Part shown: positions 2,570-52,899 of the stretch, one piece after another
How positions within the stretch are numbered: position 1 is the first letter of the stretch
Layout of the letters: each line of letters opens with the position of its first letter
Source of the DNA: Blastococcus mobilis
GTDB lineage: Bacteria > Actinomycetota > Actinomycetes > Mycobacteriales > Geodermatophilaceae
Direction: 5' to 3'
Assembly (NCBI RefSeq): GCF_900188025.1
Contig: NZ_FZNO01000001.1
Span: 310,001 to 374,000 of the forward strand
DNA length: 64,000 nt
Notes under the pieces: model-generated
The model's input: only the letters and a program-made list of their open reading frames with translations
What the model was told of the DNA's origin: nothing
The model's database searches: none
Translations under genes and position numbers: made by a program

Positions 2570-5029
2570 CTAGACGAACTCCGCTCGGCGCAGCCAGGAG
2601 AAGGCCGCCCAGCCCGGAAGGATCGGGAGCCAGAACGTGGCCAGGCGGTAGAGGAAGACGGCCGGGACGGCGATGGTGTGGTCCATTCCGGCGGCGACGA
2701 GACCCGCGATGACGGCAGCCTCCAGAGCGCCGAGGCCGCCGGGGGTGGGGGCGGCGGCCGCGATGGCCGAGCCCAGGAGGTAGACGGCACCCACGCTCGC
2801 GAGGCTCAGGTCTCCGCCGAAGGCGCGGGTGGACAGGTAGACGCAGAGGATGTAGCTCAGCGTGACCACGGCCGATCCGCCGAGCAGCAGCGCGAGCTTG
2901 CCGGGGCTGCGCAGGGCGTGGGCGACACCACCGATGGACCGGCGCAGCAACGGGAGCAGCCTCCGGGCGACGAGCCGACGGACGGTCGGAACAGCGAACA
3001 GGACGGCGGTCAGGGCGAGCACCGCCAGAACGCCCCATCCGAAGACCTGCGGGCGGGGCAGTCGGATGGAGTCGAAGACCGACCGGCCGGCCCAGAAGGC
3101 GAAGACGAGGAGCAGGAAGGCGTGCACGACGAAGCCGCCGATGGTGTTCAGGCCGACCCCCGACGTGGCCACCGCCAGGTCCACGCCGCTCTTCTGCAGG
3201 TAGCGGACGTTCAGCGCCATGCCGCCGAGGCCGGCCGGTGCCAGCTTGCTCGCGAACGAGGAGGCCAGCTGGGTGACGAACGTGGGCACCGGGCGCAGCC
3301 GCACCGGAACGGCTCCCGAGATGCTCAGCGCGGCGCCCACGTAGGTGAGCGCGGACATCGCCACGATGGGCGGCAACCAGGCCCAGTCGGCCTCGCGGAT
3401 GCGCTGGACCATGCCCGCCACGTCGCCGAGTTGCGGGACGAGCAGGTAGGTGATGGCAACCAGCATGACGCCGGTGACGATGGTTCTGGGGCCGATCCGG
3501 TCCAGGGCCACGAGCTCGGGCTCCGGCACCCCGCACCGGGTGGCCACCGTTGCGCGGAGCTGCCCGACCAGCTCCTTCCGCTGCTTCAGCGCCTCCCTCG
3601 TGGCGCCGCTGAACGTGTTGGGTTGCAGGCGGGGGAGCGAGGCGGCAACGGCCTCCGGTCCGAGTTCGGTGATCGCGGTGTCGACGACGGGGTCGACCCC
3701 CACCTGGAGTGCCAGCGCGACGAGGAGCTGGGCGGCATCGGCGTCGAGGAGTGCCTGGCCGGCGGCGACCTCGCTGAACCCGAAGTCGATGAGCCAGGGC
3801 GAGCCATCCCGGTCGAGGAGGATGTTGGCCCGGCGCAGGTCGCGGTGGGCGATGCGGTGCCGACGCAGGATGGCCACCTGCTGCCAGATCCCGCGCAGTA
3901 CCTCTTCGGTGACGGCCGCGTCGGGGACCCGATCCAGGGACGTCCCCTCGACGAGGTCGTAGGACAGGAGGATGGAGTCACGTCCCACCGTGGCGACGGC
4001 CCGCAGCCGCGGAGTGCGTGCAGCGACGTCGCGGGCCATCAGTGACACCAGTCCTTCGTGCTCCACGGTGCGGCGCAGCGAGGAGAACGGCCGTTCGTCA
4101 CCGACGTTCTTCAGCCGGATGAACCGGTAGGCCCGGAACAGCAGGTCCGCGGCTCGTTGGTCGGCACCGAGCACCTTGGCGAACACCCGGCTGCCGTCCT
4201 GCAGAGTGGCGAAGTAGGGAACCGAGCCGCGGGCGTCGACGGCGGCAGGCTCCAGTTCGACCACCGGAAGCCCGCTGCTGGTCAGCGCGGCGGCGATGGC
4301 GCAGCGGGTGGGCCGCCCACTGGGCCGGCCGAACATGAGCAGCGTCCCGGAGCCCGCGGCGACGCCGAGGACCAGCGCTACGGCGACCGTGGCCGGCAGA
4401 GTGATCGGCACCAGCAGTCGCAGCAGCGAGACCAGCGTCAGCATCACTGCGCCGGCACGCCGCCACCGGCGGGAGACGTGTGGCGCGAGGACCACGAACG
4501 AGGCCGCCGTGACGGCGATGCCGTCCACGGTCAGCGGGCTGTCGGCGCCGCCACGCTGGGCGACCTCCCGCATCAGGGCGTCCGGAGTCCCCCGGTCGAG
4601 CAGCCACTCGACCCCCCGCGAGAGCGACACCGCGAGCACGCCGCTGACGATCAGGTAGCCGACGAGCCGATAGCGCCGGATCACCAACGGGGTGAGCCAG
4701 GCCGCGGCGACCGACGCGAGCAGCAGCAGGGTCAGGAGCCCGGTCAGGATCCGTCCGACCTCCGGTGTCATGAAGGACAACCGCTGGAGGAGGTCGATCT
4801 CCAGCGACAGCACCGCGTCGCGCGACCAGCTGCCGAGGACGACCAGTAGCAGGGCGGCGAGAGTGAACACGACGGTGCGCAGCACGTCGCTGGGGGAGCG
4901 GACGTAACCGGTGATCAGTTCCTGGGATCGGATCCCCGGGTCGGCTACGGCGCCAGACTCCGCCGGGACGGCGGTCCTCAGGTCCATCGGTGCCGCGTCG
5001 GCCGCTTGCCGCAGGCCGCCGGTCCTCAT
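2570..5029 (-). CDS. Membrane protein fusing a protein-kinase-like domain to a UPF0104/MprF-type flippase domain
   Basis: About 819 residues. The N-terminal third has roughly five to six membrane helices. A cytoplasmic kinase-like domain follows, with HRDLRRANILLDRDG as catalytic loop and LIDFGFSE as the DFG metal-binding motif, both intact. The C-terminal third has about eight helices and matches the UPF0104/YbhN family (transmembrane part of lysyl-phosphatidylglycerol synthases), including the segment SSFASKLAPAGLGGMALNVR. The family is linked to lipid or polyprenyl-lipid translocation; what the kinase-like domain phosphorylates is unknown. The start is uncertain: ATG at 5029 is used, but GTG at 5068 and ATG at 4987 are in frame. 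The stop is UAG. Confidence 0.85.
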   Translation of the reverse strand: MRTGGLRQAADAAPMDLRTAVPAESGAVADPGIRSQELITGYVRSPSDVLRTVVFTLAALLLVVLGSWSRDAVLSLEIDLLQRLSFMTPEVGRILTGLLTLLLLASVAAAWLTPLVIRRYRLVGYLIVSGVLAVSLSRGVEWLLDRGTPDALMREVAQRGGADSPLTVDGIAVTAASFVVLAPHVSRRWRRAGAVMLTLVSLLRLLVPITLPATVAVALVLGVAAGSGTLLMFGRPSGRPTRCAIAAALTSSGLPVVELEPAAVDARGSVPYFATLQDGSRVFAKVLGADQRAADLLFRAYRFIRLKNVGDERPFSSLRRTVEHEGLVSLMARDVAARTPRLRAVATVGRDSILLSYDLVEGTSLDRVPDAAVTEEVLRGIWQQVAILRRHRIAHRDLRRANILLDRDGSPWLIDFGFSEVAAGQALLDADAAQLLVALALQVGVDPVVDTAITELGPEAVAASLPRLQPNTFSGATREALKQRKELVGQLRATVATRCGVPEPELVALDRIGPRTIVTGVMLVAITYLLVPQLGDVAGMVQRIREADWAWLPPIVAMSALTYVGAALSISGAVPVRLRPVPTFVTQLASSFASKLAPAGLGGMALNVRYLQKSGVDLAVATSGVGLNTIGGFVVHAFLLLVFAFWAGRSVFDSIRLPRPQVFGWGVLAVLALTAVLFAVPTVRRLVARRLLPLLRRSIGGVAHALRSPGKLALLLGGSAVVTLSYILCVYLSTRAFGGDLSLASVGAVYLLGSAIAAAAPTPGGLGALEAAVIAGLVAAGMDHTIAVPAVFLYRLATFWLPILPGWAAFSWLRRAEFV

Positions 5030-24110: not shown

Positions 24111-25841
24111 ATGGCCGACATCCGCCAGGTCCAGGCCGGCACGCAGACGATCGCCGTCCGCAAGGACCTGCGGGTCCCGATGCGCGACGGCGTCACCCTG
24201 GCCGCCGACGCCTACTCCGGCGTCGAGGACAAGCCGCGCCCGGCCCTGGTCGCGCTCAGCCCGTACGGGAAGGAGCTGCAGGCCCTCGCCCTGACCATGC
24301 CGCCGCAGCGCCGTCCCAGCCCCATGTGGGACGGGTGCATCGAGGCCGGTGACATCGCCCGCGTGGTCGGCGAGGACTACGTCCACGTCATCGGTGACCT
24401 CCGCGGCTCCGGCGCCTCCGAGGGTGAGCACATCGGCAACTACAACGCCGGGGGCGTCCCACTCGGGCAGGACGCGTACGACGTCATCGAGTGGGTGGCC
24501 GAGCAGCCCTGGTGCGACGGCAACGTCGGCATGATCGGCATCTCCTACTACGGCTCGATGCAGGTCCTCGCCGCCGCCGAGCGCCCGCCGTCTCTGAAGG
24601 CGATCTTCGTCTCCGGCGGCCACTTCGACTTCTACGAGACCACGTACCACGGCGGCGTCATGTGGTTCATGCCGCGCGCCGCCCGCGAGGGCCGCGGTGG
24701 CGACTCCGGCTGGGCCTTCACCGACCGCATCACGTCGCGGATGCTCGAGACGTACTCCGCGGAGGAGGTCGAGAAGCGGGTCGCCGAACGCCTGCAGGAC
24801 CCGGACGTCGCGGCCTGGCCGAACCTCGTCCACGTGCTCCACTACCCGAAGCACCACGAGGCCTGGTTCGACATCGTCCTCAACGACCTCGACGGCGAGT
24901 GGTACGAGGAGCGCAACCCGATCAACCTCGCCCGGAACATCGACATCCCGGTCTACCTCCAGATCGACCAGGGCCGCGGCTGGACGGTGGACGGTCACAT
25001 CGAGTTGTTCGAGACCCTCACCGGCCCCAAGAAGCTGGTCATCGGCTCGTACCCCCCGATGCAGTCGCGCCCCTGGGTCGAGGAGCACGACGAGATGTTC
25101 CGCTGGTACGAGTACTGGCTCAAGGGCGTCGACAACGGGATCATGGACGAGCCCGCCGTGAGCGTCTTCGTGGAGGGCTCGCGCGAGGTGGTCACCGCCG
25201 AGCAGTGGCCGCCGAAGGACGTCGAGTACCGGTCGCTGTACCTGCGTCCGCGCGGCAAGCTCTCCGCGGAGCCGGAGCTGCTGGGCCCCGAGCACGCCGC
25301 GCCGGAGGGCTTCTACCAGGCGCCGCTGACGGTGACCGACAAGGTGGAGATCCTCAGCTGGAGCACCGCGCCGTTCGAGGAGGCCACCGAGCTCATCGGC
25401 ACCGGTGCCGCGCACCTGTTCGCCGAGATCGACCAGCCGGACACCAACTTCATCCTCCGGCTGTGGGACGCCGCTCCGAACGGGAAGCGCCAGCTGATCA
25501 CCACCGGCTACCTGAAGGCGTCGCACCGGGAGCTGGACGATCGGACGACGGAGGGCAACCCGTACCACCCGCACACCCGGGCCGTGCCGGTGGAGCCGGG
25601 GAAGATCGAGGAGTACGTGCTGCGCCTCTACCCGTTCGCGAGCACGTTCCGGCCGGGTCACCGCCTGGTGGTGGAGCTGTCCAACGACGAGCCGCTGGCC
25701 GACGCCCACAACGCGCTGCTGCCGCCGGACGCCTTCCACCTGCCGGTGGGCCGGCCCGTCACCCACAAGATCTACCGCGACGCCCTCCACCACTCCCGCC
25801 TCGTGCTGCCGTTCACGAGGCGTGCGGCCGAGGTGGGATAG
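24111..25841 (+). CDS. CocE/NonD-family serine hydrolase (X-Pro dipeptidyl-peptidase fold)
   Basis: 576 residues. The nucleophile elbow GMIGISYYGSMQ carries Ser about 145, preceded by GDLRGSGASEGE, the signature of CocE-type hydrolases. After the alpha/beta core (with a helical cap near 200-330) comes a C-terminal jelly-roll domain from about residue 400 (YVLRLYPFASTFRPGHRLVV). The family includes cocaine esterase, antibiotic acylases and X-Pro dipeptidases. No signal peptide, so cytoplasmic. AAGGAG precedes the ATG; 29 bases follow the MBL gene. It ends in UAG. Confidence 0.93.
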   Translation: MADIRQVQAGTQTIAVRKDLRVPMRDGVTLAADAYSGVEDKPRPALVALSPYGKELQALALTMPPQRRPSPMWDGCIEAGDIARVVGEDYVHVIGDLRGSGASEGEHIGNYNAGGVPLGQDAYDVIEWVAEQPWCDGNVGMIGISYYGSMQVLAAAERPPSLKAIFVSGGHFDFYETTYHGGVMWFMPRAAREGRGGDSGWAFTDRITSRMLETYSAEEVEKRVAERLQDPDVAAWPNLVHVLHYPKHHEAWFDIVLNDLDGEWYEERNPINLARNIDIPVYLQIDQGRGWTVDGHIELFETLTGPKKLVIGSYPPMQSRPWVEEHDEMFRWYEYWLKGVDNGIMDEPAVSVFVEGSREVVTAEQWPPKDVEYRSLYLRPRGKLSAEPELLGPEHAAPEGFYQAPLTVTDKVEILSWSTAPFEEATELIGTGAAHLFAEIDQPDTNFILRLWDAAPNGKRQLITTGYLKASHRELDDRTTEGNPYHPHTRAVPVEPGKIEEYVLRLYPFASTFRPGHRLVVELSNDEPLADAHNALLPPDAFHLPVGRPVTHKIYRDALHHSRLVLPFTRRAAEVG

Positions 25842-25956
25842 CAGAAGCCCAGCGCGTCCGCCGCGCCGATCGCGGGCGCACGTCCGGCGAGTGATGGAGG
25901 CACGAGGACGTGCGTCCGCCGGACGGAGCCTGCCGTCGAGGACGCGGTCACGCGGC

Positions 25957-27375
25957 ATGGGGGCTACCGTCGGCTGCGTGCGGCTCCCGGACGGACTCGT
26001 CGCGGTGGTCAAGCGCGACTGTCCTACCTGCGTGCTGGTCGAGCCGGTCCTGCGGGCGCTCGGTGCGGCCGTCTGGTGCCAGGACGACGCGGCCTGGTTC
26101 GACGGCGACGACACCAACCTCGAGCTGTCCTACCGGCTGGGGATCGAGACGGTGCCGACCCTGCTGCGCGTCCGGGCCGGGGTGGAGACCGCGAGGGTCG
26201 TCGGCTGGAGCCGCGAGCAGTGGGAGCAGCTCACCGGCGTGTCCGGGCTCGGCCCGGCGCTGCCCGACCACCGGCCCGGCTGCGGCTCGCTCTCGGTCGA
26301 CCCGTTCCGGATCGACGGACTCGAGGCCCGCTACGGCGTCAGCGGGCTGAGCAGCCGGCGAGTGGAGCTCGCCGACGCCGAGGACGAGCACGAGGCGCTG
26401 TTCGACCGCGGCTGGACCGACGGGCTGCCCGTGGTGCCGCCGACGCCCGAGCGGGTGCTGCGCATGCTGCGCGGGACGACGCGGGACCCGCGGGAGGTGG
26501 TGGCCGTCGTGCCGCCCGACCTCGTGGAGTGCACCGTGGAGAAGGTCGCCGTCAACGCGGTGATGGCCGGCTGCCTGCCGGAGTACCTGCCTGTCGTACT
26601 GGCCGCGCTCGAGGCCGCGACGTCGGAGGAGTTCGCGCTGCACGGGCTCCTCGCGACCACGCACTTCGCAGGGCCGGTGGTCATCGTCAACGGGCCGGTC
26701 GCGGCGCGGATCGGCATGAACAGCGGGGTGAACGCCCTCGGCCAGGGCAACCGCGCGAACGCGACGATCGGACGCGCGCTCCAGCTCGTCGTGCGCAACG
26801 TCGGCGGCGGCCGGCCAGGGGAGGTCGACCGGGCGGCCATGGGCAATCCGGGCAAGTACACCTTCTGCTTCGCCGAGCGGGAGGAGGACAGCCCGTTCCC
26901 GCCGCTCGCGGCCGACCGCGGTGTCGCCGGAGACGCGGTCACGGTGGTCGCCGGGTCGGGGGTGCAGCCGGTGGTGGACCAGCTCAGCCGCGACCCGGAG
27001 TCGCTGGCTCGCACGTTGGCGGCCTGCCTCCGGGTGAACGCACACCCCAAGCTGCCGGTGGCTTGGGATGCGCTGCTCGTCGTCTCGCCCGAGCACGGGA
27101 GGGTGTTCCGCGAGGCCGGGTGGGACCGTGGACGTCTCCTGGCCGAGCTGGAGCGCCTGCTCCTGCTGCCCGCTGCCGAGCTGGTCCGCGGTGCCGGTGG
27201 CATGGCCGAGGGGGTGCCGGACTCCATGGCGGGCCGAGAGCTACCCAAGTTCCGGCCGGGTGGCCTGCTCGTGGCTCACGCCGGCGGTCCGGCGGGCTTG
27301 TTCAGCGCGATCGTCGGCGGTTGGGTCGGCGGGGAGACGGGCAGCGTTCCCGTGACACGAGAGGTGCGCACATGA
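25957..27375 (+). CDS. Thioredoxin-domain protein fused to a large unrecognised domain; partner of the UGSC selenoprotein
   Basis: About 472 residues. Residues about 10-95 form a thioredoxin-like fold with the redox motif RDCPTCVLVEP and a cis-Pro loop (ETVPTLLRV). The remaining 350 residues carry GWTDGLPVVPPTPERVLRML, GPVVIVNGPVAARIG and GMNSGVNALGQGNRANATIG; I cannot name this domain. The gene ends ATGA with the start of the selenoprotein gene, so the two are translated together; a thiol-selenol redox relay is a natural idea, but inferred. The start is uncertain: ATG 25957 is used, with in-frame GTG/ATG at 25891-25894 and GTG 25978 as alternatives. Confidence 0.82.
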   Translation: MGATVGCVRLPDGLVAVVKRDCPTCVLVEPVLRALGAAVWCQDDAAWFDGDDTNLELSYRLGIETVPTLLRVRAGVETARVVGWSREQWEQLTGVSGLGPALPDHRPGCGSLSVDPFRIDGLEARYGVSGLSSRRVELADAEDEHEALFDRGWTDGLPVVPPTPERVLRMLRGTTRDPREVVAVVPPDLVECTVEKVAVNAVMAGCLPEYLPVVLAALEAATSEEFALHGLLATTHFAGPVVIVNGPVAARIGMNSGVNALGQGNRANATIGRALQLVVRNVGGGRPGEVDRAAMGNPGKYTFCFAEREEDSPFPPLAADRGVAGDAVTVVAGSGVQPVVDQLSRDPESLARTLAACLRVNAHPKLPVAWDALLVVSPEHGRVFREAGWDRGRLLAELERLLLLPAAELVRGAGGMAEGVPDSMAGRELPKFRPGGLLVAHAGGPAGLFSAIVGGWVGGETGSVPVTREVRT

Positions 27376-27884
27376 GAACGGTGCTGGACCCCACCGGGGA
27401 GCGGCAGGCACCCGGCCGTGCGCTCCTGCCCCGTCCGGTCGCGCTGGAAGGGCGCACCGTCGGTCTGCTCGACATCAGCAAGGCCCGCGGCGACGTCGTC
27501 CTCGACCGGCTGGAGCAGCTGCTGACCGCGGACGGTGCTCACGTGCGCCGGTACCGCAAGCCGACGTTCGCCCGTCCCGCCCCGGTGGACCTGCGGCACG
27601 AGATCGCCGAGCAGTGCGAGGTGGTCATCGAGGCGCTCGCCGATTAGGGCTCCTGCACGTCGTGCAGTGTGCACGACATCGCCGACCTGGAGCGCCGCGG
27701 CGTGGTGGCCCTCTTCCTCGCCAGCGAGGCCTTCGCCGAGGCCGCGCGGCTGCAGGGCGAGGCGCTCGGCTTCCCCGCCCCGTTCGTACTCGTGCCCCAC
27801 CCGGTCCAGGACCGGACCGACGACGAGCTCCGCACCATCGCGGAGCGTGTCTACCCCGACGTGGTCGCCGCGCTGACCGCGTGA
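27372..27884 (+). CDS. UGSC-family selenoprotein read through an in-frame UAG (selenocysteine at codon 92)
   Basis: Reading from ATG 27372, codon 92 (27645-27647) is TAG; the same frame continues for 78 codons to TGA at 27882-27884, giving a 170-residue protein. Around the TAG the protein reads EALAD-U-GSCTSCSVHDIAD, the motif after which the UGSC (seleno)protein family is named. Neither half is family-like alone: the motif straddles the stop. A hairpin that could act as bSECIS lies 11 bases downstream of the TAG. The start overlaps the stop of the thioredoxin-domain gene (ATGA). The usual Sec codon is UGA; UAG use was reported for Geodermatophilus and Blastococcus (Mukai et al. 2016, from memory). 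Enzymatic role unknown; GSCTSC suggests selenol/thiol chemistry. A decayed gene is the main alternative, but the conserved second half argues against it. Confidence 0.85.
27659..27677 (+). promoter_or_regulatory. bSECIS-like hairpin for UAG recoding
   Basis: GTCGTGCA (27659-27666) and TGCACGAC (27670-27677) pair perfectly over eight base pairs around a GTG loop (or seven pairs with loop AGTGT). It begins after exactly 11 bases following the UAG, the spacing known for the minimal E. coli bSECIS, and the loop contains the GU that SelB contacts there. A competing stem, CTGCAC/GTGCAG (27653-27667), overlaps it. Codons through it still encode the conserved SCSVHD segment, as a bacterial SECIS must allow. 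Confidence 0.7.
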
Positions 27885-28014: not shown

Positions 28015-29943
28015 CTACCGGGCGTCGGTCAGGACGCCGGACAGGAAGTCGGCCAGCTCCTCGTGCCCGTCCAGGGGGAGCACGTGGGCGACGTACTGGT
28101 CCGGTCGGACGACGACCATGCAGCCCGTCTCCCGGTCGATCCCGCGCAGGTCGAAGACGTCGTCGCCCGCCGGGTCGGGGCAGAAGACCTTCTCGTAGTC
28201 GATCAGCCCGAACGTGCCCTTCCTCGGGAGCAGGACCGGCGGCATCGCCTCGACGGCCAGGTCCCGGTGGTTCTGCTGGAAGACGGCGCGGACGTCGATG
28301 AGCGAGTCCGGGTCGGCCCCGGCCGGGGTGTGCCGGGTGATCGGAGACTTCTCCGACCCCAGGAAGTCGCACAGTGCGCGGGCTCCGGAGTCCAGGCTGG
28401 TCGGGTCGCTCCGGTCGGCGAAGACGTAGATGCGCCAGGCGCCGTCGGCCCGGGCGGCGTGGCCCAGCTGCACGGGCTTGGCGTCGGCCAGCCGCACGAC
28501 CGGGGCCGAGTGGAAGCGCATCCCGACGGGGAAGCCCTCCGCGAGGTGCTGGAACTGGGTCCCAGCGGTGATGACCGACGGTGCGTACCTGGTGGCGACG
28601 CCGGCGGTGAAGCGACCCTGGGCGGCGAAGTACCGCTGGAACTCGGCCGGGTCGACGCCCTCGCCCTCCTCCTCACCGGACTCCTTCGGCGGGGCGCTGA
28701 ACATGCGGGCGAACTCGCGGTCGAAGTCGATGAGCTCCTGGGCGATCACCTGGCGCTCCGCGGAGTAGGTGTCCAGCAGTTCCGGCCGGGCGGTGCCCCG
28801 CAGGACGGCGCCCAGCTTCCAGCCGAGGTTCCAGGCGTCGGCCATCGACACGTTCATGCCCTGGCCGGCCTTGGCGCTGTGCGTGTGGCAGGCATCGCCG
28901 GCGATGAACACGCGGGGGACGCGCGAGCCGGTCTCCTCGGCCGGCACGTCGTCGAACTTGTCGCACAGTCGCTGGCCGATCTCGTACACCGACCACCACC
29001 CGACGTCCTTCACCTCGAGGGTGTACGGGTGCAGGACGCGGTTGGCCACCGCCGCGAGCTTCTCCGGCGTGACGCTCCTGTTGTCGAGCATCTCCCGGTC
29101 GCTGACCTGGTCCAGCTCGATGTAGAGCCGGACCAGGTAGCCGCCCTCCCGCGGGATGATGAGGAGGTTGCCCTGGTTCGCCGACAGGATCGCCGACTTG
29201 AGCCGGATGTCCGGGAAGTCGGTCACCGCCAGGACGTCCATGACGCCCCACGACTGGTTCATCGGGTCCCCGACGAGCTCACGGCCGATCGCCGACCGCA
29301 CGCCGCTGCGCGACCCGTCGCATCCGACGACGTACTTGGCGCGGACCGTGGAGGTCCGGCCGGTCTCCTGGAAGTTCTCCAGGTGCTGCAGCGTGACGGT
29401 GACCGGGTGCTCCGCCGAGCTGTCCGAGTCGATGGTGAGCCCGCTGGCGTGGAGGCCGTAGAAGGGTTCCAGCCGGCTGGCGGAGCGCTCCATGTGGTCG
29501 CGCAGGTAGGCGAGCATGCGCGCCTGGTTGACGATGACGTGGGGGAACTCCGACAGCCCGTCCTCGACGTCCTGGATCCGCCCGGTGCGGGTGATCCGGG
29601 TCCGGTCCTCCGGGTCCGGTCGCCAGAAGGAGACCTCGTTGACCCAGTAGCCCTCGGCGACGAGCTGGTCGGCCAGGCCGAACGCCTCGAACATCTCCAC
29701 GGTGCGGCAGGCGACCCCGTCGGCCTGGCCCACCTCGAGCGGACCGTCCCGGCGGTCGATGACCATCGTCCTGATGTCGGGGAAGTTGGCCAGCTGGGCG
29801 GCCAGGACGAGGCCCGCCGGACCGCACCCGACGATCAGGACGTCGACCTCGTCGGGCAGGCCGTCCGGCCGGTCCGCGACGGAGGGGTGCGGCTCCTCGA
29901 TGAAGGGGTCGCCCGGCCGGTATCCGTTGAGGTAGAACTGCAC
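28015..29943 (-). CDS. FAD-binding aromatic monooxygenase (phenol 2-monooxygenase / 3-hydroxybenzoate 4-monooxygenase type)
   Basis: 642 residues. The start QFYLNGYRPGDP and the order of motifs are those of MobA/phenol-hydroxylase enzymes: VDVLIVGCGPAGLVLAAQLA (FAD), VVGCDGSRSGVRSAIG (GD/DG fingerprint), RVFIAGDACHTHSAKAGQG (FAD ribityl), and a C-terminal thioredoxin-like domain from about 470 typical of phenol hydroxylases. It ortho-hydroxylates a phenolic ring with NAD(P)H. GTG 29943 is chosen since AGGGAAA lies just before it and the family begins at this point. It diverges from the IclR gene, its likely regulator. The stop is UAG. Confidence 0.92.
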   Translation of the reverse strand: MQFYLNGYRPGDPFIEEPHPSVADRPDGLPDEVDVLIVGCGPAGLVLAAQLANFPDIRTMVIDRRDGPLEVGQADGVACRTVEMFEAFGLADQLVAEGYWVNEVSFWRPDPEDRTRITRTGRIQDVEDGLSEFPHVIVNQARMLAYLRDHMERSASRLEPFYGLHASGLTIDSDSSAEHPVTVTLQHLENFQETGRTSTVRAKYVVGCDGSRSGVRSAIGRELVGDPMNQSWGVMDVLAVTDFPDIRLKSAILSANQGNLLIIPREGGYLVRLYIELDQVSDREMLDNRSVTPEKLAAVANRVLHPYTLEVKDVGWWSVYEIGQRLCDKFDDVPAEETGSRVPRVFIAGDACHTHSAKAGQGMNVSMADAWNLGWKLGAVLRGTARPELLDTYSAERQVIAQELIDFDREFARMFSAPPKESGEEEGEGVDPAEFQRYFAAQGRFTAGVATRYAPSVITAGTQFQHLAEGFPVGMRFHSAPVVRLADAKPVQLGHAARADGAWRIYVFADRSDPTSLDSGARALCDFLGSEKSPITRHTPAGADPDSLIDVRAVFQQNHRDLAVEAMPPVLLPRKGTFGLIDYEKVFCPDPAGDDVFDLRGIDRETGCMVVVRPDQYVAHVLPLDGHEELADFLSGVLTDAR

Positions 29944-30002
29944 GCTCGTTTCCCTGCCATCCGCGGCCACAGTGTCTGTCGAGTCCTGACGGTGCCCGAC
30001 TT

Positions 30003-50604: not shown

Positions 50605-52899
50605 TCAGCTGTGCTGCTCCGGTGAGCCGGCGTCACGTCGACGACCGGCCGGTTCCTTCGCGCCGAGATCGCGGGCGAGGCCTGTGACGGCTGCATCCAG
50701 ACGGCGGAGAGTGTGTATGGCGATGAGTTCCCGGCTGCCCGGCTCCTCCGCCCCATCGTGATCGACCCGCCTTCCGCCCTCCTCCGGCGATCGGGCGCGC
50801 AGGGCCTGCTCGGCCCGGTCCAGGAGGTCATCAGCCGGTGACACGGTCGCGGTCCGGCCCGCGATGAGATCACCCAGCGCGGCGATGTTCTCCTGGACGT
50901 GCCGGGCCGCGGCGTCCAGGTCGTCCTGCACCGCGGCCCGGGTGTGGGACGGCGCGGGCCGGGCGCTGATGCCGGCGAGCGTGCGGGCGTAGTGGCTGCA
51001 GTTGGTCAGCACCTCCAGGGCCCGACGGGCACCGTGCCGCCCGCCCAGCCCTGTGACGCCGCTCGTCATCGGCGCGGCGACGGTCCGCAGCCGGTGGAGC
51101 CGCCGGGTGAGCTCGGCGGTCTGTTCCGTCAGTGGCGGGGAGCTCTCCTTGCCCAGGGGGCTGCCCGCCGCGCTCCCGACCAGGTCGGCAAGGGTGGCGG
51201 TGAAGTCGCGGGCGGCGCCGCGGGCGAGCTCTGCCGTGCTGCTGGGCAGCACCACGAGCGCCACCAGTACACCGATGGTGGCCCCCACGGCGGTCTCCTG
51301 GAACCGGTCGACCAGGACGTCGACGCTGAACTCCCCGAGGAGGCCGTAGACCAGCGCCAGGAGGACGGTGCTGAAGAAGACCGACACGGCGTAGCCGGCC
51401 TGCATGAAGAAGAGCGTCAGGTAGAACGCCGCCACGACCAGCACCAAGGACGCGACGGTGTCGCCGCGGACGGCGGTGGCGAGCACGACACCCGCAGCCA
51501 GGCCGAGCACCGTCCCGAGCAGGCGCTGCCAACCCCTGGCCAGGGTCTGCCCGCTCGACTCGGTCCCGAGGAAGATCACGAGCGCGGAGATGAATGCCCA
51601 GTACCACCGCGTGGCCGACAGCAGATTGCCGGCGACGATCGCCAGTGAGGTGGCGACGCCGACCTGGATGGCCCGTCGGGTGCTCGGCCCCAGCCGAGTC
51701 GGCACGGTGTCCGGCGACTCCTCACCCGCCGGTCGCTCCATGTTCTTCGGCCGCTCGTCGACCGTCTCTTTCTCCCCCGCGCTGACGGGGCCGTCACCGA
51801 TCCCGGTCCGGTCGGCGGGAGAAGCGGCCAGGAGGTGCAGCTGGACCACTGCGCCGGCCGTCTCGTGGAGCGCGAGCGCGAGGCGTCGCACGTCCTCGGT
51901 CGCGTCCCCGTCCTCGGTGCTCGGCGAGCCCGGGTCGATGTCCAGCACCCCCGCCGCCCGTCGGCCGGCCGCCGTCAGATCGACGGGGTTGGTCGCGGTC
52001 TGCAGTTCGGTCCCCACCGCCTCGAGCGCGTCGTGCAGGCGGGCGCGGACGGCCGGCGAGATCTCCTCGACCGTGGCGGCCACCCGTTCGGCGGAGGAGC
52101 CGAGGCGCTCGGCGGCCAGCTCGGCGTCGAAGACGACGCGAAGGAGCTGCTCCACGTCGACGTCCAGCGGTCGACCGGTGTCGTCGCGATGCTGGGTGAG
52201 CTGGCCGTGGACCGTCAGCGCCGTCTCGTTCAGCCGAGCACTTCGGGTGCGTAGCCGGCCGAGCAGTCGCTCGTCCGCTCGTCCGGCGCGGACGGCGTCG
52301 TCCACCGCGTCCACGACCGCGCCGACGCGCACCTGGAAGGCGGCGAGCGTGCGCGGGAGCACTCGGTCGGGCCGGTCGAGGAGGACGGACCCCAGGACGA
52401 GGTGGCCGGTGCCCGCGCCGACCGCGACCGCAGTGACCAACCACGGCAGCTGACCCGGGGGTGGACCGACGACGAGTGCTGCGAAGTAGGCCAGGAGAGC
52501 GCCTGTGCCCAGTACCGTCCCGCGGGAGCCGAACCGTTGGACGTAGAAGGCCATGGTCGAGACCAGAACCAGCCCGAGCCCCCCGGCCAGCCGGTGCGGC
52601 GCCAGTAGCGCGCCGGCGGAGAGCGTCGTGGCGGCGACCGCCACCAGCAGGACGGTCGTGAACCGCCGGTGACGGGGATCGAGGTCGGGTGGTGAGAGAG
52701 CAGGGGCCATGGCGACCAGCGCGCCGACCATCACGCCGGACGACGGCTGCCCGGCGACCGCGGCCAGCAACGCCAGGACGGCCAGCACGACCGCCAGGGC
52801 GACCGTCGTCCGTCCGGCGGAGCGCAGGCGGATGAGCCCGGGGTCAGCGCCGAGCAGCCGTCCCCAGGCGCGTTCGGCGAGCATTCTCAGCCGGTGCAC
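50605..52899 (-). CDS. FUSC-family membrane protein (aromatic acid exporter-like)
   Basis: 764 residues: six helices, a cytoplasmic helical domain (about 170-390), six more helices (from WYWAFISALVIFLGTESSGQ) and a C-terminal helical domain. Two membrane halves of this kind define the FUSC family (YccS/AaeB). Members export aromatic carboxylic acids or similar compounds. GTG 52899 is the start. Confidence 0.85.
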   Translation of the reverse strand: MHRLRMLAERAWGRLLGADPGLIRLRSAGRTTVALAVVLAVLALLAAVAGQPSSGVMVGALVAMAPALSPPDLDPRHRRFTTVLLVAVAATTLSAGALLAPHRLAGGLGLVLVSTMAFYVQRFGSRGTVLGTGALLAYFAALVVGPPPGQLPWLVTAVAVGAGTGHLVLGSVLLDRPDRVLPRTLAAFQVRVGAVVDAVDDAVRAGRADERLLGRLRTRSARLNETALTVHGQLTQHRDDTGRPLDVDVEQLLRVVFDAELAAERLGSSAERVAATVEEISPAVRARLHDALEAVGTELQTATNPVDLTAAGRRAAGVLDIDPGSPSTEDGDATEDVRRLALALHETAGAVVQLHLLAASPADRTGIGDGPVSAGEKETVDERPKNMERPAGEESPDTVPTRLGPSTRRAIQVGVATSLAIVAGNLLSATRWYWAFISALVIFLGTESSGQTLARGWQRLLGTVLGLAAGVVLATAVRGDTVASLVLVVAAFYLTLFFMQAGYAVSVFFSTVLLALVYGLLGEFSVDVLVDRFQETAVGATIGVLVALVVLPSSTAELARGAARDFTATLADLVGSAAGSPLGKESSPPLTEQTAELTRRLHRLRTVAAPMTSGVTGLGGRHGARRALEVLTNCSHYARTLAGISARPAPSHTRAAVQDDLDAAARHVQENIAALGDLIAGRTATVSPADDLLDRAEQALRARSPEEGGRRVDHDGAEEPGSRELIAIHTLRRLDAAVTGLARDLGAKEPAGRRRDAGSPEQHS

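Follow-up and report, generated by a model that had tools for sequence, protein, structure and literature searches.

Three Geodermatophilaceae genomes have been described to carry a selenocysteine (Sec) tRNA with the anticodon CUA (Santesmasses et al., 2017; PMC5330540). In that paper, Mukai et al. (2016; doi 10.1002/anie.201511657) are credited with FDH and UGSC-motif selenoproteins of matching codon, and the paper itself adds an AhpC in which Sec is specified by TAG (PMC5330540). In a recent review, UGA is still the only codon given for the insertion of Sec in bacteria (PMC13188914).

Here, we analysed a window of 64,000 nucleotides of Blastococcus mobilis, whose 5.09 Mb genome belongs to the same family, in a genus group that also holds B. 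tunisiensis and B. litoris. A preliminary description of the window had proposed a selenoprotein gene with UAG as Sec codon and had credited such use to Geodermatophilus and Blastococcus (Mukai et al., 2016). This attribution was right (PMC5330540). The proposal is correct. It is also known in kind, since UAG-encoded Sec in UGSC proteins of the Geodermatophilaceae is already in print (PMC5330540). Our results provide very strong evidence that a soil-type actinobacterium reads one particular UAG as Sec in a small redox protein. The 2016 work of Mukai and colleagues reportedly includes 75Se or mass-spectrometric confirmation.

The UGSC gene and its in-frame TAG

The UGSC-family gene lies on the forward strand at 27372-27884 and encodes 170 amino acids. 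Its frame opens with ATG at 27372, contains a single in-frame TAG at codon 92 (27645-27647), and then stays open until the TGA at 27882-27884. Codons 92-95 read UAG-GSC, which places the TAG exactly at the Sec position of a motif that in this family consists of Sec or Cys followed by G-S-C, as the preliminary description had pointed out; Cys95 and Cys98 follow. When the TAG is translated as U or C, the product matches Pfam family PF24696 (UGSC; E 3e-45, 154.9 bits against a cut-off of 25) over residues 3-169, and thus on both flanks of the TAG. The same product also matches NCBIfam NF041046 (E 6.7e-44, 149.5 bits, cut-off 125).

We scanned the two strands of the window for TAG, TGA or TAA codons that are in frame and have coding-type composition on each flank. 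Two sites emerged, the TAG at 27645 and a TAG at 52252 that we took for a presumed false positive. Because the whole window yields just this one further site, the in-frame TAG of the UGSC gene is not a matter of chance.

Alternatively, the gene might be a pseudogene cut at codon 91 by a nonsense mutation, or the TAG might be a sequencing error. TAG is an ordinary stop codon in this genome, and the release factor RF1 is present, as this explanation would have it. Yet it is extremely improbable. The same codon is TAG in dozens of independently sequenced relatives, which dismisses a sequencing error at 27645-27647, while outgroup orthologues have TGA at this codon and never a random sense codon. 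Moreover, purifying selection persists 3' of the TAG. Over the 78 codons past the TAG, the window and B. tunisiensis differ at 4, 2 and 22 sites of the first, second and third codon position, respectively. Judged from these sequences, the 78 codons are under frame-preserving selection. Together with the profile match beyond the TAG, the third-position bias bears out the earlier claim that the frame runs on through 78 conserved-looking codons to a TGA. Likewise, the expectation of U or C at codon 92 in UGSC homologues was borne out by Sec codons, TGA or TAG, at that site.

Selenocysteine machinery

A single tRNA-Sec was found in the window genome (67 bits). Its anticodon is CUA, and it is flanked by selA, selB and a divergent selD. 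Here, selB was identified by profile, and selA and selD were recognised from the open reading frames beside it. A codon-cognate tRNASec, SelA, SelB and SelD are thus all encoded in the genome, which is the set of components that the preliminary description had proposed to look for. RF1 was found as well. A scan of named selenoprotein families revealed a second UGSC gene (contig C48) and an FDH-alpha gene (contig C61, ahead of the residues HSATVPG), each with one in-frame TAG at its Sec site, so that tRNASec(CUA) occurs together with UAG Sec sites in two UGSC genes and FDH-alpha. Among the AhpC-type proteins searched in this genome, none had an in-frame stop, and no Sec-containing AhpC was found.

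The gene of the window is therefore almost certainly a UGSC selenoprotein gene, in which the active-site Sec is specified by UAG and delivered by way of tRNASec(CUA), SelB and a hairpin. SelA and SelD would make Sec-tRNASec on a tRNASec whose anticodon has turned into CUA. SelB, bound to a hairpin just 3' of the codon, would bring this Sec-tRNASec to the UAG in competition with RF1, and UAGs without such a hairpin would keep ending translation. The gene, its codon, the hairpin, the tRNA, SelA, SelB, SelD, RF1 and the co-variation of the codon with lineage and anticodon can all be seen at the level of sequence, from which we infer Sec insertion in this strain itself.

The UAG might instead be decoded as pyrrolysine, since ARAGORN labels the CUA tRNA as tRNA-Pyl. 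This label follows the anticodon, however, and the tRNA fits the tRNA-Sec model over all 91 positions, with selA, selB and selD adjoining. It has a long variable arm, in contrast to tRNAPyl, in which this arm measures 3 nt (PMC7609411). Homologues have Sec or Cys at the site. Decoding as pyrrolysine is therefore highly implausible.

SECIS hairpin

Downstream of the Sec codon, at 27659-27677 on the forward strand, comparative pairing points to a SECIS hairpin, GUCGUGCA-GUG-UGCACGAC. It has 8 bp and a loop of 3 nt that begins with GU and lies 19-21 nt after the UAG. Across 89 orthologous sequences (32 unique sequences with TAG and 57 with TGA), the synonymous sites of codons +4 to +10 past the Sec codon are nearly frozen. 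The codons ACG TCG TGC AGT GTG and GAC are essentially invariant in both groups, and third positions on either side of the hairpin codons vary. The invariant AGT accounts for 1.9% of Ser codons.

In UGSC paralogues, which have other amino acids here, the pairing is kept via compensatory changes, with four pairs changed on both sides, and 96% of the hairpin cells are paired compared to 85% in shuffles. A pairing-conserved hairpin shortly 3' of the Sec codon is thus present. In a single-sequence test, its stability relative to shuffles was not unusual (z -0.4 to -1.2); the support for the hairpin is comparative. One orthologue with TGA (L054) equals the TAG orthologues nucleotide for nucleotide in the hairpin region, except for the Sec codon. 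Together with the frozen hairpin codons, this indicates that codon and anticodon were switched and the hairpin was left unchanged.

UAG as a stop codon

A third possibility is that UAG has been reassigned to Sec altogether and no longer serves as a stop. In line with this, UAG is a minor stop codon of the genome: in a composition-selected sample, TAG ended 6 of 48 genes and UGA the other 42. Against it, RF1 is present, the SECIS hairpin has been retained, and two genes near the UGSC gene terminate in TAG (24111-25841 and 28015-29970). Furthermore, the UGSC orthologues of B. capsensis and Blastococcus sp. TF02-09 (L044 and L051) use TAG as Sec codon and terminator within one gene. In L044, the Sec codon is at 3274 and the TAG stop at 3517-3519. 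The chance of complete reassignment is therefore minimal. RF1, the TAG-ended neighbours and the orthologues with dual use argue for recoding through SECIS and SelB. In other words, UAG is recoded to Sec depending on its context, just as UGA is in other organisms. With UGA as terminator of 42 of the 48 sampled genes, one might suggest that the move of Sec to the rarer UAG has lessened interference with termination.

Codons and anticodons in relatives

UGSC genes in 115 genomes of the family had either one TAG or no in-frame stop, and none had TGA. The stop-less genes that were read have Cys codons. Wherever a named genome of Geodermatophilus or Blastococcus was found, its UGSC orthologue had TAG, and B. 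litoris GP-S2-8, from the tool-defined genus of the window genome, has an identical UGSC locus. The remaining loci of the orthologous clade (n=57), mostly actinobacterial, have TGA at the same codon. In FDH-alpha genes of the family, TAG was also found among the matches listed; one FDH-alpha fragment among these matches (G080) has a TGA 3' of the expected Sec site. Some UGSC relatives (G031:C11:449600-450500, G032, G067 and G073; L171-L174) have Cys, in the motif CAGC or CGAC, and apparently constitute separate subfamilies.

A tRNA-Sec was present in 111 of the 115 genomes. ARAGORN and direct reading gave 51 anticodons, of which 43 were CUA and 8 were UCA. Of the tRNAs with UCA, seven belong to three genera consisting of MAGs only (g5-g7; genomes G067, G069-G071 and G073-G075), and the eighth is an extra copy in Geodermatophilus sp. 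LHW52908 (G059). Since the MAG genera keep UCA, the codon switch falls inside the family as grouped by the tool. When 396 genomes from the phylum were searched with a strict pattern for tRNASec(CUA), the window genome alone was matched; the pattern is too strict to rule out other carriers.

In a tree of the orthologous clade, independent conversions of TGA to TAG looked likely. We dropped the idea of multiple origins, because a single origin is compatible with the AU test (p 0.174).

Geodermatophilus sp. LHW52908 has its UCA tRNASec (G059:C17:1173-1263; 81.8 bits; L121, L183, L189) beside a CUA one, and a single SelB. A crude scan of the contig bearing the UCA tRNASec found no UGA selenoprotein. 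We consider it rather unlikely that the UGA-to-UAG switch, which lies inside the family and left the SECIS untouched, is caught midway in this strain, which would then read both codons as Sec with one SelB. In a genome of genus g11, a single contig carries two CUA tRNASec genes together with two genes for SelB (G110:C255:162092-162183 and 221048-221139).

Partner gene and protein function

Immediately 5' of the UGSC gene, on the same strand, lies a partner gene (25822-27375, conserved from about 25963), which encodes an N-terminal thioredoxin-like domain with the motif CPTC and, after it, an uncharacterised domain of large size. The TGA of the partner gene and the ATG of the UGSC gene overlap (ATGA, 27372-27375). 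A partner homologue directly precedes the UGSC gene at all 22 loci with TAG and at 51 of the 58 with TGA; the other neighbours in the window are not conserved beside UGSC in the compared loci. The partner protein matched no Pfam family above the cut-off. Its structural model (pLDDT 69.5) showed weak matches to class I fumarate hydratase, which rest on this poor model.

In the AlphaFold2 model of the UGSC protein (pLDDT 88.8), alpha and beta elements alternate, and the fold weakly resembles flavodoxin-like proteins (TM-scores at most about 0.5). Sec92 is predicted between a strand (residues 84-90) and a helix (93-108), with Cys95 one turn further. The model, alpha/beta and flavodoxin-like, does not support the Trx-like fold guessed for UGSC proteins in the GOS paper of 2008 (PMC2398784). 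No family of known reaction was matched above cut-off. Most likely, the UGSC protein would be a selenol-based reductase that is re-reduced by, or works with, the upstream thioredoxin-domain partner.

The NCBIfam models of glycine/sarcosine reductase selenoprotein B were tried on 26 members of the UGSC family and gave weak matches at the Sec motif for 19-21 of them (best E 1.3e-4), which suggests that UGSC may be distantly akin to selenoprotein B (GrdB/GrdF). The window protein itself scored 11 bits, far below the cut-offs of 602 or 800, and is thus not a GrdB-type protein by these profiles. No GrdB turned up when Actinomycetes were searched, although such a search is no proof of absence.

Comparison with known systems

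Selenoproteins of the Geodermatophilaceae are likely to be missed, because gene callers truncate the genes and tRNA finders mislabel tRNASec as tRNAPyl. For one locus (L001, 1501-1596), ARAGORN calls the CUA tRNASec a tRNA-Pyl, a probable source of misannotation across the family.

In comparison with GrdB and GrdF, to which UGSC is weakly linked by the profile matches at the Sec motif, the UGSC protein has about 170 amino acids and is encoded beside a thioredoxin-domain partner. The UGA-encoded UGSC selenoproteins of the GOS metagenome (PMC2398784) share the family, the UxxC motif and the hairpin sequence with our gene, but here the Sec codon is UAG.

The UAG-Sec systems of Geodermatophilus and Blastococcus resemble ours in bacterial family, in tRNASec(CUA), and in a UGSC-motif protein and FDH with UAG. 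B. saxobsidens DD2 differs by its Sec-AhpC, of which none was found in the window genome. To these published systems, our study adds another genome, with two UGSC genes, and evidence that the SECIS stayed unchanged and that UAG serves in two roles. Further additions are the family-wide census, the MAG genera retaining UCA, the constancy of the hairpin across the switch, the conserved partner gene and the weak link to GrdB. The family offers a clean natural case in which the Sec codon moved between stop codons while the RNA signal stayed the same, so that codon identity is separable from SECIS recognition.
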